From NCBI RefSeq assembly GCF_001686985.1, contig NZ_CP015318.1, positions 60,001 through 124,000 of the forward strand: 64,000 nt of DNA, in the 5' to 3' direction. Within the stretch, counting starts at the first letter, position 1; each line of letters begins with the position of its first letter. The translations under genes were made by a program, and so were the position numbers. The notes below the pieces were generated by a model. That model was not told where the DNA came from. It worked only from the letters and a program-made list of their open reading frames with translations, and ran no database searches. Of this stretch, positions 3,192 through 53,864 are shown one piece after another. The stretch comes from Mesorhizobium amorphae CCNWGS0123 (lineage in GTDB: Bacteria; Pseudomonadota; Alphaproteobacteria; Rhizobiales; Rhizobiaceae).

Positions 3192-3584
3192 TCATCCATG
3201 GCCGTCGCGAACGCGTCGCTCCAGGGCGAGCGTGCGCTTGGTGATGTCGTCCAACTCGAAACCTTGCGAGACCATGAAGGCTCCGGATCCGGTGTCCGGA
3301 TCGACGGTAAGGCGGTGGGTTTCCTTCAGGTGATGGCGAAGCCAGGCTTTCTGTTCCGCTTGCAGCCTTGCGCGTCTTGCACCGCTTTCGCGATGCAGCA
3401 GCGTCTGATAGGCGGCATTCAACCTGGCATCCCACTTGTCGATTTCAACCTTCCCGCAGTCCAGCATTTCTTCCGAAACACCGTTTGTGCGATCGACGCA
3501 TGCCGCCATCTCGTCGTCCGACTGCGCATTTGCGGATTGGCCAAGCATCAAAAGCAGGCCGGCAAGAGCATATTTCGCGGTCAT
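3192..3584 (-). CDS. LprI-like (DUF1311) secreted protein
   Basis: Exported protein of 130 residues. The N-terminus is a signal peptide (MTAKYALAGLLLMLGQSANA, cleavage expected after ANA). The mature part has the DUF1311/lysozyme-inhibitor LprI pattern: an early cysteine (MAACVD), a second cysteine (MLDCGK), then D-RLNAAYQTLL and QKAWLRHH. Members of the family have been linked to lysozyme inhibition, but most are uncharacterised, so that role is only possible here. An AGGTGG ribosome site precedes the ATG. It appears monocistronic, following the MFS gene's start by about 100 bases on the same strand. Confidence 0.75.
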   Translation of the reverse strand: MTAKYALAGLLLMLGQSANAQSDDEMAACVDRTNGVSEEMLDCGKVEIDKWDARLNAAYQTLLHRESGARRARLQAEQKAWLRHHLKETHRLTVDPDTGSGAFMVSQGFELDDITKRTLALERRVRDGHG

Positions 3585-49321: not shown

Positions 49322-51331
49322 TCAGGATGCCGCGGCTAGCCGCTTGGACGGCGCCGTGTCGGCGCCTTTGAGGTCCTCATCCGGCGCCGCTGAAACGCAG
49401 CCCCGTCCGGCGGCCTTGGCCGCGTAACAGGCGGCATCGGCCCGTGCGATGATCTCATCCACTTCGCCACAGCCGGCGCGGATCGGAGCCAGGCCGATGC
49501 TGGCGCCGATCGAATGCGCCCGCCCGTCCCAGGTGAAATTCAGGCCGCGGATCGCATCGATGATGGATCGTGCCGCAATCATGCCGCTGGCGGCCGAGCC
49601 GGACATCAGGATGACGGCGAACTCGTCGCCTCCGAGGCGGGCGACGATGTCTTCAGGTCCAAGCACGCCACGGATCGCCTCGGCGACCCGCTTCAACAGG
49701 GCATCGCCGGCGGCATGGCCGCCGGTGTCGTTGACCAGCTTGAAGTGGTCGAGGTCGACAAACATGAACTGATGCTCCCCGATCGACCCTGTCGTATCGC
49801 CGACCGATCCCGTCGTGTCGGCCGCGTCGGCCTTGCCGCTCCGATCGACCAGTTCCTCCATCGTGCGGATGAAGCTCGAACGGTTGGCGAGACCGGTGAG
49901 CGCGTCATGGGCGGCGGCATAGGCGAGTTGGCGCTGCAGGGCGCGCGCATCGGTAAAATCCTGGAAGACGATGACCAGTCCGCAGAATTCAGCTCGCTCG
50001 TTCATGATAGGCGACACGACCTGACGGATGCTGCAGCGCGTGTCGTCGCGGCGGATCAGCACGGCGCGACTGTTCTGCTCGGCGGGACCTGTGCCGCCGG
50101 TCGAAGCCCGTGCCACGCCGATCCTCTGCCCGGTCTCTTCGTCTACCGCCCAGTAGACATGACCGAGCGTCTTGCCGAGCGCCTCGCCGCTGGTGACGCC
50201 GGTCAGCTTTTCGGCCACCGGATTCATGAAGGTGACGCGGTTTGCGGCATCCGTGCAGATCACGGCATCGCCGATCGACTGCAGGGTGACGCGCAGCCGT
50301 TCCTTCTCGTCGGCCAGCATCGCCGCCGAGACGATGAGGCGCGCTTCGGCCTCCTTGCGCTGAGTGATGTCGGTCAGGCTGCCGATGGCCCTGATCAGCC
50401 GCCCGACGGCGTCGCGCTCGATGGCCTTGCCGCGGTCGAGAATCCAGACCCAGTGCCCGTCCTTGTGGCGCATTCTGAACTCGGCTTCGAAAAACGGCGT
50501 CTCGCCGGCGAGGTGGGCGCGGTCGGCCTCGGCGACGAGCTCGCGGTCGTCGGGATGGATCATCGTCAGCCAGCGGTCGGGGTCGCCGTCCAGTTCGCCA
50601 TCGGCATAGCCGAGCATCTTCACCCAGGTACCGGAGTAGGTCGTGCCGCCCTTGCGCATGTCGAGATCCCAGACGCCCTGACCAGCGCTGGCCAGCGCAA
50701 AGTTCCAGCGCGTTTCAGCTTCCGCGATGCGGGCCTCGGACTGCTTGCGGGCGTCGATGTCCTCGATCTGTGAAACCAGGTAGAGCGGACGGCCGTTGTC
50801 TTCGTCGCGGATGACCGAGCCGGCAAGCTGCGCCCAGACCGGCGTCCCGTCCTTCCGCAGGTAACGCTTCTCGAAGTGGAAAGCGTCGATCTTGCCTGCC
50901 TTCAGGTCGATCATCGTGTCCCTGCCGATCTGCAGGTCGTCGGGATGCGTGATCTGGAAGAAGGTCAGCGCCTCGATCTCCTCCCGGCTATAGCCAAGCA
51001 TGGTGGCGAAAGCCGGATTGGTCTGCAGGATGCGGCCGTCGAGGCCGACGATGGCGACGCCGATCGCCGAATCCTCCATGGCGCGGCGGAAACGCTGTTC
51101 GCTCTCGCCGATCTGGCGGCGGTCCTCGACGATCTGGCGAACGAACAGGGCGGTGAGGAAAAGCGACGCCGCGATCATGGCGACCGCTATCTGCAGGCAG
51201 AGTTTCAGGGCCTCGGCGCCGAGCTCCAGGCGCGACAGCAGGATCGACGCAAGGACGGCGACAAGGCCGACCACCATCAAAACCAGCGCAGCATGTCTGT
51301 CGGCCCGCAGGCCTTTCCAAGTCCACGTCAC
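49322..51331 (-). CDS. Membrane-bound PAS-PAS-PAS-GGDEF diguanylate cyclase
   Basis: Sensor that makes c-di-GMP, 669 residues. Two N-terminal helices (about 12-35 and 42-65) are followed by three PAS domains: about 78-200 (SAIGVAIVGLDGRILQTN), 205-330 (TYSGTWVKMLGYADGE, a PAC-type WVWILDRG), and 345-465 (GDAVICTDAANRVTF). The GGDEF domain is active-looking, with HDALTGLANR and RLGGDEFAVI near residue 568; no EAL domain. Just before it is a small insert with DTTGSVGDTTGSIG, a duplicated heptapeptide. The signal sensed is unknown. Confidence 0.92.
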   Translation of the reverse strand: MTWTWKGLRADRHAALVLMVVGLVAVLASILLSRLELGAEALKLCLQIAVAMIAASLFLTALFVRQIVEDRRQIGESEQRFRRAMEDSAIGVAIVGLDGRILQTNPAFATMLGYSREEIEALTFFQITHPDDLQIGRDTMIDLKAGKIDAFHFEKRYLRKDGTPVWAQLAGSVIRDEDNGRPLYLVSQIEDIDARKQSEARIAEAETRWNFALASAGQGVWDLDMRKGGTTYSGTWVKMLGYADGELDGDPDRWLTMIHPDDRELVAEADRAHLAGETPFFEAEFRMRHKDGHWVWILDRGKAIERDAVGRLIRAIGSLTDITQRKEAEARLIVSAAMLADEKERLRVTLQSIGDAVICTDAANRVTFMNPVAEKLTGVTSGEALGKTLGHVYWAVDEETGQRIGVARASTGGTGPAEQNSRAVLIRRDDTRCSIRQVVSPIMNERAEFCGLVIVFQDFTDARALQRQLAYAAAHDALTGLANRSSFIRTMEELVDRSGKADAADTTGSVGDTTGSIGEHQFMFVDLDHFKLVNDTGGHAAGDALLKRVAEAIRGVLGPEDIVARLGGDEFAVILMSGSAASGMIAARSIIDAIRGLNFTWDGRAHSIGASIGLAPIRAGCGEVDEIIARADAACYAAKAAGRGCVSAAPDEDLKGADTAPSKRLAAAS

Positions 51332-51473: not shown

Positions 51474-52112
51474 CTACCAGCGCACGAAAAGCCGCCCGCC
51501 CAAGGCTCCCAACGCTGTAAGGATGATGATCGCGACCGTGTACCAGGTGGCGACGAAGAGCGGTGAATCGTCGACGCAGTGCGCGGCATAGAAGGTCGCC
51601 GCCAGCCCGCCGGCGAGCAGGCCCGCAACCGCGCCGGCAAGCACCGGCCGCGTCGGCGCGCCGTAGCGCAGCATCCACAGGAAAATCGCCAGCGGGCCAA
51701 TGCCGATCAGCGGGATGAAGCCCATGCAGATCATCATGTTGGAGCCGACCAGCCGCGTGCCCCATTGCGCCTCAGGCACCGCGAAGAGCTCCAGAACCAC
51801 AGCCACGAGGACGAGCAGCGGCGCCGCGGCCATCCAGGTCGCCGCCTTTCCCGTCGATGCGCCGGGCGTCGACAAAGCGTGGATCAGCGCGAAGGCGGTG
51901 CCGGCAAGCACGATGGTGAAGACGAACTTCGACAGGAAGCGCATCGTGTGCATGGCGATCATGATGTCGGAACGTGGACCGATCGTGAACCAGAAAACCA
52001 CCGCGGCGATCACCGCCGCAACCGCGGTGGCCATCCACCAGGCCGAACGCAGCGGCATCGCCTTGTTGCGGGCGTCGGCGTCCAATGCCTTGATGAGATC
52101 CTCGGTCCTCAT
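51474..52112 (-). CDS. NrsF-type anti-sigma factor (DUF1109)
   Basis: Membrane anti-sigma factor of 212 residues with about six helices and a short cytoplasmic N-terminus (MRTEDLIKALDADARNKAMP) expected to hold the sigma factor. The DUF1109 pattern is seen in MRFLSKFVFTIVLAGTAFA and the conserved-cysteine loop FYAAHCVDDSPLFVATWY. Another cysteine occurs in MMICMGF. In Caulobacter crescentus NrsF keeps the ECF factor SigF bound until metal stress, which requires such cysteines. It starts one base after the sigma gene's stop. Confidence 0.85.
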   Translation of the reverse strand: MRTEDLIKALDADARNKAMPLRSAWWMATAVAAVIAAVVFWFTIGPRSDIMIAMHTMRFLSKFVFTIVLAGTAFALIHALSTPGASTGKAATWMAAAPLLVLVAVVLELFAVPEAQWGTRLVGSNMMICMGFIPLIGIGPLAIFLWMLRYGAPTRPVLAGAVAGLLAGGLAATFYAAHCVDDSPLFVATWYTVAIIILTALGALGGRLFVRW

Positions 52113-52113
52113 G

Positions 52114-52650
52114 TCATTCCCGCCCGAAACGCCTGGCAATGGCGGCAAGGCCGCGATGCAGCGACACCCGCACCGCCGTCTCGGTAATGCCGAATTTCGC
52201 CGCCGTCTCGCCGATCGAACGGCCCTCGACCGACACCGCCGAGACCACCGAGCGCTGCGCCGGCGGCAGGCTGTCCAGCACCCGGTTGATGTCGCGCTCG
52301 CTGACGGTCTCGGTCTCAGGCTCGGCGAAGGTTTCGGCGATTTCGTCGATCTCGATCTCGACACGCCGCCCGCGCCGCCGGAAGGCATCGATCAGCTTGA
52401 AGCGCGCTATGGCAAAGACCCATGGCAGCACCGGCGCATCGTCGCGCCAGGTATGCCGTTTGACATGAATGGCCAGCAAGGTTTCCTGCACGACATCCTC
52501 GGGGTCGACCCCGCCCTGTACGATCTTGCGCCGGGCAAAGCCGCGAACGAGAACAGCCGTCCGGTGCAGAAAGTCGGCGTAGGCCCTTTCATCTCCGGCG
52601 ATTGCGGCCTTGAGCAGCCGGGAAAGCTCGGCCTCATCCTTGCCGGTCAC
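52114..52650 (-). CDS. ECF sigma factor, SigF-like
   Basis: 178-residue RNA polymerase sigma factor with only regions 2 and 4. Region 2 includes DPEDVVQETLLAIHVKRH and LPWVFAIARFKLIDAFRRR (about 48-90); region 4 has LPPAQRSVVSAVSVEGRSIG, ETAAKFGITETAVRVSLHRG (about 130-170). Pairing with a DUF1109 anti-sigma factor places it with Caulobacter SigF, which responds to chromate, cadmium and oxidative stress. The start is GTG with GGGGGAG 9 bases upstream. A promoter of the type it should recognise lies in front (52671-52696), consistent with autoregulation. Confidence 0.92.
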   Translation of the reverse strand: MTGKDEAELSRLLKAAIAGDERAYADFLHRTAVLVRGFARRKIVQGGVDPEDVVQETLLAIHVKRHTWRDDAPVLPWVFAIARFKLIDAFRRRGRRVEIEIDEIAETFAEPETETVSERDINRVLDSLPPAQRSVVSAVSVEGRSIGETAAKFGITETAVRVSLHRGLAAIARRFGRE

Positions 52651-52670
52651 AAGAGTTCACTCCCCCGATG

Positions 52671-52696
52671 TTCGCGTCTCGGCGCTGTTTTGTTAC
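52671..52696 (-). promoter_or_regulatory. SigF-type ECF promoter, autoregulatory
   Basis: On the minus strand GTAACA (52696-52691), exactly 16 bases, then CGAA (52674-52671). The Caulobacter SigF consensus is GTAACC-N16-CGAA, so 9 of 10 positions match. It ends 21 bases before the ECF start codon. Confidence 0.65.
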
Positions 52697-52856: not shown

Positions 52857-53864
52857 ATGAGATACGCCCTTTCCGCCCTCGCCGGCGCCACCGCGCTGGC
52901 GATCAGCCTGATCGCCGCCCCGGCCATGGCCGAGGATGCCGGCATCGTCGTCTACAACGCCCAGCATGAGAGCCTGACCAAGGAATGGGCCGAGGGCTTC
53001 ACCAAGGAGACCGGCATCAAGGTGACGCTGCGCAATGGCGGCGACAGCGATTTCTCCAACCAGATCGTCGCCGAAGGCGCTGCCTCGCCGGCCGACGTGT
53101 TCCTGACCGAAAACTCGCCGGCCATGGCCCTGGTCGAGGCCGCCGGCCTGTTCGCGCCGGTCGATGCCGACACGCTGGCGCAGGTTCCGCAGGAATACCA
53201 GCCGACCACCGGCAAATGGGTCGGCGTTGCCGCGCGCAGCACCGTCTTTGCCTACGACAAGACCAAGCTGAAGGAAGACCGGTTGCCCAAGTCGCTGCTT
53301 GAGCTCGCCGATCCGAGCTGGAAGGGCCGCTGGGCCGCCTCCCCCTCCGGCGCAGATTTCCAGGCCATTGTCAGCGCTTTGCTGCAGCTGAAGGGCGAGG
53401 CCGCGACGGCCGACTGGCTGAAGGCGATGAAGGCGAACTTCACCGCCTACAAGGGCAACAACACCGTGATGAAGGCGGTCAATGCCGGCGAGATCGAAGG
53501 CGGCGTCATCTACCATTATTATTATTTCGGCGATCAGGCCAAGACCGGCGAGAACAGCAAGAACGTCGCCATGCACTATTTCAAGAACCAGGATCCGGGC
53601 GCTTTCGTCTCGATCTCTGGCGGCGGCGTGCTGGCCTCGAGCAAGCACCAGAAGGAAGCTCAGGCCTTCCTGAAGTGGGTGACCGGCAAGGGTGGCCAGG
53701 AGGTGCTGAAGAACGGCACGTCCTTCGAATATGCGGTCGGCAAAGGCGCCGATTCCAATGCGAAGCTGGTGCCGCTCGCCGATCTGCAGGCACCGAAGGT
53801 CGATCCGGCGACGCTGAACTCGAAGAAGGTCACTGACCTGATGACGGGAGCCGGCTTGCTTTAG
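52857..53864 (+). CDS. fbpA: Iron(III) ABC transporter substrate-binding protein
   Basis: Periplasmic Fe3+-binding protein of 335 residues. Signal peptide MRYALSALAGATALAISLIA, cut near AMAED. The iron-type signature is a tyrosine cluster, YHYYYFGDQ from residue 219, as in FbpA/FutA proteins, plus IVVYNAQHESLTKEWAEGF at the start of the mature part and FLTENSPAMALVEAAGLF. A terminator-like hairpin follows, then fbpB and fbpC. It is divergent from the ECF/NrsF pair with a shared 206-base regulatory spacer. Confidence 0.9.
   Translation: MRYALSALAGATALAISLIAAPAMAEDAGIVVYNAQHESLTKEWAEGFTKETGIKVTLRNGGDSDFSNQIVAEGAASPADVFLTENSPAMALVEAAGLFAPVDADTLAQVPQEYQPTTGKWVGVAARSTVFAYDKTKLKEDRLPKSLLELADPSWKGRWAASPSGADFQAIVSALLQLKGEAATADWLKAMKANFTAYKGNNTVMKAVNAGEIEGGVIYHYYYFGDQAKTGENSKNVAMHYFKNQDPGAFVSISGGGVLASSKHQKEAQAFLKWVTGKGGQEVLKNGTSFEYAVGKGADSNAKLVPLADLQAPKVDPATLNSKKVTDLMTGAGLL

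Follow-up and report, generated by a model that had tools for sequence, protein, structure and literature searches.

The question raised by this locus is what a sigma/anti-sigma gene pair of Mesorhizobium amorphae CCNWGS0123 controls. In the window, that is, the whole stretch of 64 kb analysed here, the first-pass annotation had described an ECF sigma gene with a promoter similar to that of Caulobacter SigF, and had read the pair as an autoregulated metal-stress switch.

The gene pair and its promoter

The following features, all on the minus strand, define the locus.

51474..52112, minus strand: gene for a membrane anti-sigma factor of the DUF1109/NrsF family (PF06532), 212 aa
51576..51578, minus strand: codon of Cys179 of the anti-sigma factor, the residue number of the stress-responsive C179 of OsrA and of C179 of AbcS
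51726..51728, minus strand: codon of Cys129 of the anti-sigma factor, the residue number of C129 in OsrA and in AbcS
52114..52650, minus strand: ECF sigma gene of ECF16 type, 178 aa, GTG start, with Pfam sigma regions 2 and 4 and a match above cut-off to NCBIfam NF009165
52660..52666, minus strand: GGGGGAG, read from the sequence as a likely ribosome-binding site, 9 nt upstream of the GTG
52671..52674, minus strand: -10 element CGAA, 16 bases past the -35 hexamer
52691..52696, minus strand: -35 element GTAACA, preceded by a C and thus fitting the ECF16 form [T/C]GTAAC; exact in 41 of 41 relatives

The pair is an ECF16 sigma/anti-sigma system, a relative of SigF-NrsF, RpoE7-EcfR7, EcfF-OsrA and BcrS-AbcS. 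The sigma protein has only regions 2 and 4 in Pfam, as in ECF16 systems. The anti-sigma factor matches PF06532 with an E value of 6.4e-54 (183 bits, cut-off 26.8), and its hydropathy profile gives eight hydrophobic windows merging into six membrane segments, as expected of the ECF16 type. Against the equivalog of Caulobacter NrsF (NCBIfam NF042994) it scores 114.2 bits, under the cut-off of 300 bits. No solved structure resembling it by sequence was found among matches with E up to 0.1, and its AlphaFold model has a pLDDT of 55; the conclusions are independent of this model. Both Cys129 and Cys179 are present in all 41 relatives, which were collected by a protein search and of which 39 are titled Mesorhizobium. 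The anti-sigma gene does begin one base after the sigma gene, as had been claimed, and this single-base gap between the sigma stop codon and the NrsF ATG (52113) is identical in the window and in all the relatives. It is the only NrsF-type gene of the whole genome.

Two neighbours recur beside the pair. Divergent from the sigma gene lies a gene for an ABC transporter substrate-binding protein (52857-53864), of unsure type as its NCBIfam scores are below the cut-offs; all 41 relatives have a homologue close to the pair, at a distance of about 3 kb in some of them. On the same strand as the pair, about 140 bp 3′ of the anti-sigma gene, lies a gene for a PAS-GGDEF protein (49322-51331), with homologues in the loci of 37 of the 41 relatives.

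The promoter itself was found exactly as described before, with GTAACA, 16 bases and CGAA on the minus strand in front of the ECF gene. From 52696 to 52671 this strand reads GTAACA AAACAGCGCCGAGACG CGAA, and the motif ends 20 nt before the sigma GTG (52650). Read from the sequence only, it has the [T/C]GTAAC-N17-CGAA arrangement of ECF16 promoters. As a 6-bp spacing is given for ecfF of Bradyrhizobium japonicum (PMC3420878), transcription would be expected to start near 52664-52665. The likeness to Caulobacter also holds, at 9 of the 10 positions of GTAACC-N16-CGAA, which is the search sequence used by the SigF authors (PMC3511200). The one deviating base, an A, is not unusual in rhizobia since the ECF16 promoters of Sinorhizobium meliloti are likewise GTAACA-N15-CGAA (rpoE7) and GTAACA-N16-CGAA (SMb20530) (PMC6180224), which its sequence (L229) also shows. 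The promoter type is therefore already known.

All 41 relatives have an exact GTAACA-N16-CGAA 18-20 nt upstream of this same start codon. The species are close, and the flanks (89%) and the spacer (92%) are nearly as well conserved, so conservation at this promoter is weakly informative. Nevertheless, with an ECF16-type sigma factor, a DUF1109/NrsF anti-sigma factor and a conserved promoter of the same class, autoregulation is the natural reading, and we consider the pair likely to be autoregulated. This part of the earlier reading thus stands, as deduced from the promoter class; its metal-stress part found no support, as the DUF692 cluster has no exact copy of the motif (see below). Autoregulation was reported from experiments for Bradyrhizobium EcfF (PMC3420878) and Brucella BcrS (PMC8315932), while Caulobacter sigF was called "not strongly auto-regulated" by its authors (PMC3511200).

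Copies of the motif before methionine sulfoxide reductase genes

The motif by itself is weak evidence. GTAAC[AC]-N16-CGAA has one exact copy in the window, the one facing the sigma gene, and dinucleotide shuffles of the window contain 0.08 copies on average, with 8 of 100 shuffles having one. In the whole genome of 7.34 Mb there are 10 such sites against 34 for a reversed-pattern control, and the wider form GTAACR-N15/16-CGAA gives 16 sites against 84, which is no enrichment. Most genome-wide copies are therefore chance occurrences, and motif counts were rejected as proof since they are lower than those of the controls; it is position and conservation that make the copy at the sigma gene credible. 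Four of the 16 sites have a place in the argument. The other 12, checked by open reading frames, mostly fall within longer frames, and none precedes a gene linkable to the system.

The three sites used besides that at the sigma gene, on the same contig about 0.35-0.86 Mb from the sigma pair, and the genes behind them are as follows.

C1:457823, GTAACAAATGCCTATCTTGGTGCGAA: site before the cytosolic msrB, ending 142 nt before the start codon
L056:3492-3896: this MsrB gene, 134 aa, without obvious signal
C1:974378, GTAACAAAGGGCCCGCTGCCGGCGAA: site before the Tat-msrB, ending ~180-181 nt before the ATG
L057:4085-4588: this MsrB gene, with a twin-arginine signal read by eye from the sequence
C1:896833, GTAACGAAGCGCCGCGCGCCGGCGAA: site ending 38 nt before the DUF1223 gene
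L058:3398-4102: the DUF1223 gene, first in a row of three
L058:4177-4521: gene for a Met-rich MXKDX protein, second in the row, with 15 Met in 114 aa and a signal peptide read by eye
L058:4678-5418: MsrA gene (PF01625), third in the row, with an N-terminal hydrophobic signal or anchor

The first-pass annotation had tied its reading to further copies in front of plausible targets and had named methionine sulfoxide reductase among them. Such copies exist, as both msrB genes and the DUF1223-MXKDX-msrA row are headed by the motif. The genome has two SelR (MsrB) genes, both downstream of an exact copy, for which the rough chance is 2e-7 (two 400-bp stretches chosen post hoc, 16 sites in 7.34 Mb). 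Two PMSR (MsrA) genes are present, one being the third gene of the motif-headed row; the upstream region of the second (L065) has no match at up to one mismatch. The MXKDX protein scores 41 bits against TIGR02953, exactly at the cut-off; neither MsrP nor MsrQ was found at its locus, its neighbour being MsrA. The distances of 142 to ~180 nt between promoter and msrB start codon are long, which counts against these two sites. Moreover, the -35 element before the Tat-msrB shares bases with a fasciclin stop codon, so that its conservation may be partly coding.

Each of these loci shows further features. Between promoter and cytosolic msrB lies a palindromic repeat of ~95 bp in this genome (L056 ~3367-3460) and in M. 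ciceri WSM1271 (L165), absent in the M. amorphae genome L174, which lengthens the leader and leaves the promoter untouched. Just 5′ of the DUF1223 promoter there is an inverted repeat, roughly ATCAC-N6-GTGA (L058:3314-3328), conserved in the orthologs and possibly bound by another regulator. A second ECF sigma gene with an RskA-type anti-sigma gene (L057:1847-3102) immediately precedes the genes for fasciclin and Tat-MsrB; the locus may be a meeting point of two sigma systems.

The stronger evidence is from the genus. We scanned 19 other whole genomes, all titled Mesorhizobium and drawn from the 41 relatives, a set that leaves out M. huakuii (L028). Within ~700 nt upstream of the SelR domain, with spacers of 15 and 16, the exact motif precedes 38 of the 39 msrB genes, the sole exception being the third msrB of M. 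norvegicum. The distances from motif to SelR domain are steady, mostly near 126 and 365 nt; for the cytosolic msrB the motif stands 125-222 nt before the MsrB domain in 20 genomes. Close DUF1223 orthologs (76-95% identity) are present in 17 of the 19 genomes, and all 17 have the exact motif in the scanned stretch of up to 400 nt upstream. The DUF1223 paralogs, of which 13 of 19 were fetched, have no exact motif (0/13), and one of the 13 has it at one mismatch. Four of the sites keep both elements around a spacer shortened by one base (N15). All 17 DUF1223 orthologs have an MsrA frame downstream, and all but one also have a Met-rich frame there (16 of 17).

Mean spacer identity is 75% at the DUF1223 site and 81% at the Tat-msrB site, in other words variable, as calculated from rows preselected for an exact N16 match and without the four N15 cases. 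The 100% identity of the elements in these rows is circular since the rows were chosen for it. A few extra sites were seen in other Mesorhizobium genomes, two before a possible exported hydrolase (L222, L223) and one without clear gene (L226); as they have no counterpart among the 16 sites of this genome, they were left out of the argument.

The DUF1223 protein carries a CSSC motif in all 18 Mesorhizobium orthologs, that of this genome included, and its paralogs have CSSC or CNSC too. It resembles the solved structure of Atu2684 (2axo), which we take to be thioredoxin-like. Our guess is that DUF1223 could serve as an electron donor.

Metal stress, other sigma factors and chance

If the pair were a metal-stress switch like Caulobacter SigF, answering chromate and cadmium and driving DUF692/DoxX (bufferin) genes, the motif should stand before such genes, which the first-pass annotation had proposed to check. 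The genome has one DUF692 (bufferin-type) cluster (L064), and there the expectation failed. The cluster has no exact motif, and none at up to one mismatch before its first gene with spacers of 15 and 16. GTCACC-N16-CGAA, with one mismatch, does end 27 nt upstream of the last gene, which is DoxX-like; two one-mismatch strings occur in the 7-kb stretch against a shuffle mean of 2.35, which is chance level. A bufferin regulon was therefore rejected for this genome.

Bufferins, described as copper-chelating peptides (PMC12452194), speak for metals in a different way. In a family survey with one genome per genus, 19 of 61 genomes have NrsF, this one included. Outside this genome the survey gave 19 NrsF loci above cut-off in 18 genomes, and in 10 of them a bufferin-like precursor signature, searched as the pattern CYGxxxxGQNDC in flanks of ~1.5 kb, lies divergent from the sigma gene; in three (L066-L068) an MXKDX-like protein has this position, as in Brucella. 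A tree of 31 NrsF proteins (the present one, 8 of the 41 relatives, 19 family loci and 3 plasmid loci) unites Mesorhizobium in one group, which stands with the bufferin-linked proteins and apart from the three linked to MXKDX proteins (100/99 branch); its root is arbitrary, several inner forks are open and some branches are long. Against this, the signature is absent from the whole window and from the loci of 41 of 41 relatives, which extended ~6 kb to either side of the anti-sigma gene (less in four of them). S. meliloti RpoE7, which does own the cluster, and its target fusions were found unresponsive to chromate, Cd and H2O2 (PMC6180224). Methionine sulfoxide reductase targets would be compatible with metals as an indirect oxidative signal; even so, we regard a metal switch as quite unlikely. 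R. gallicum (L230) showed the exact motif on the bufferin side only, with none seen before the sigma gene.

It could also be that another sigma factor mainly uses the motif at the sigma gene, the pair then not being truly autoregulated and the msr sites belonging to that other factor. The Caulobacter sigF promoter is partly SigF-independent (PMC3511200), basal bcrS expression persists without bcrS in Brucella (PMC8315932), and the second ECF/RskA pair just upstream of fasciclin and Tat-msrB would be a candidate. Yet the element is of the published ECF16 type in a genome with a single NrsF-type gene, and it also precedes the cytosolic msrB, hundreds of kb from the second pair, which makes this account rather improbable, if slightly less so than the metal one. 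That the likeness is due to chance and was conserved merely through the kinship of the strains could be argued from the well-conserved flanks and spacer of the sigma promoter in these close species and from genome-wide counts below those of the control. The variable spacers at the DUF1223 and Tat-msrB sites oppose it, as do the scan of msrB and DUF1223 genes, which did not select for the motif, and the persistence of the exact motif 5′ of the sigma gene in 13 of the 19 other-genus loci; it is present with one mismatch in 4 more and was not found upstream of the sigma gene in the last 2. We consider this explanation highly improbable.

The link to msrB does not extend to the family. Among hand-picked genomes of the family set, 19 with NrsF (this one included) and 19 without, the exact motif lies upstream of SelR in 3 of the former (4 of 33 genes, two of them those of this genome) and in none of the latter (0 of 36 genes). 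Allowing one mismatch raises the numbers to 6 and 3 genomes, and one of four decoy motifs gave one exact match before SelR. As only 3/19 against 0/19 genomes have it, msrB control is not a family trait, and in view of this weak co-occurrence and the decoy match we restrict the claim to the genus. The exact motif does precede msrB in two other genera (G015, SelR locus L110; G020, SelR locus L101), so that the link to msr genes may have had more than one origin.

Proposed mechanism and relation to known systems

Taken together, we hold it to be probable that Mesorhizobium has an ECF16 system, released by stress, which drives its own operon, both msrB genes and the DUF1223-MXKDX-msrA row. Because the same DNA signal precedes repair enzymes for oxidised methionine, the switch probably looks more like a response to oxidation damage than to metal stress. 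In the unstressed cell the membrane anti-sigma factor would hold the sigma factor. An envelope oxidant would be perceived via Cys129/Cys179 and the sigma factor would be freed. It would then read GTAAC(A/G)-N15/16-CGAA before its own operon, thereby raising it, and before the cytosolic and the Tat-exported msrB, and would drive the putatively exported row of DUF1223, Met-rich MXKDX protein and MsrA. For OsrA, C129 was reported to be needed for holding the sigma factor and C179 for answering H2O2 (PMC3420878), and C129 and C179 are named for AbcS (PMC8315932). EcfF (PMC3420878) and BcrS (PMC8315932) both control methionine sulfoxide reductase genes besides their own operons. The Met-rich protein could be a renewable, sacrificial oxidant sink, as was proposed for BcrX and MrpX (PMC8315932).

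MsrA acts on the S form and MsrB on the R form of methionine sulfoxide, and the set could therefore restore any oxidised methionine. The products would reduce both stereoisomers in the envelope and the R form in the cytosol.

For relatives, publications already describe the sigma family, the promoter, the two cysteines and the connection to methionine sulfoxide reductases. EcfF-OsrA of B. japonicum (ECF16) shares the DUF1109 anti-sigma factor with Cys129/Cys179 at the same residue numbers, a GTAAC(g/a) promoter before its own operon and methionine sulfoxide reductase targets; its motif differs by N14-15 and CG(t/a), a DsbD-like/thioredoxin pair belongs to its regulon, and the main text of the paper mentions neither MXKDX nor DUF1223 (PMC3420878). 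BcrS-AbcS of Brucella melitensis (ECF16) is a pair described as autoregulated, with TGTAAC...GCGAA promoters, and its bcrXQP operon has a Met-rich MXKDX protein adjoining methionine sulfoxide reductase genes; the Brucella partner is of the MsrPQ type and the operon adjoins the sigma gene (PMC8315932), whereas in Mesorhizobium the partner is MsrA, MsrB is encoded elsewhere and the target sites are far from the pair. The MrpX/BcrX-MsrPQ methionine-sink systems thus share the MXKDX protein and differ in the adjoining MsrP/MsrQ, for which MsrA stands here. RpoE7-EcfR7 of S. meliloti (ECF16) shares the GTAACA promoter, and its anti-sigma factor is 50% identical; RpoE7 drives the divergent DUF692-type cluster SMb20530-20527 (PMC6180224), while no bufferin signature lies beside the Mesorhizobium pair. 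SigF-NrsF of Caulobacter crescentus (ECF16) shares gene pair, promoter and two cysteines and differs in its chromium/cadmium response and DUF692/DoxX targets (PMC3511200).

In the open-licence literature, as judged from titles, abstract starts and some passages, no publication on this system in Mesorhizobium was found, and none on MXKDX with MsrA or on DUF1223 with methionine sulfoxide. What is new is the target set in Mesorhizobium, the pairing of the MXKDX protein with MsrA and the evidence of differing targets under a kept promoter code.

A more far-reaching proposition, which we advance tentatively as a possibility that we would not yet call probable, is that a switch of the bufferin-linked (metal) lineage changed its targets in Mesorhizobium, with sigma factor, promoter code and sensor left as they were, and arrived by convergence at the methionine sink of Brucella and Azospira with different enzymes, the MXKDX protein taking up the oxidation that would otherwise hit envelope proteins and being recycled by exported MsrA and Tat-MsrB and the CxxC protein DUF1223 being the periplasmic electron donor. 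If true, the retargeted switch would be a quinone-independent counterpart of MrpX-MsrPQ.

These results show how far regulons can be trusted when they are transferred by homology. In S. meliloti this sigma family and promoter go with a DUF692-type cluster, in many other genera with bufferin-like neighbours and in Mesorhizobium with conserved sites at methionine-sulfoxide repair genes. For this genus of nitrogen-fixing symbionts of soil and root nodules the results outline a small candidate regulon of four promoters, with a possible function for DUF1223. They also allow the systems to be compared as to what their common NrsF cysteines perceive: should one sensor serve such different targets, then oxidation itself is the probable signal.
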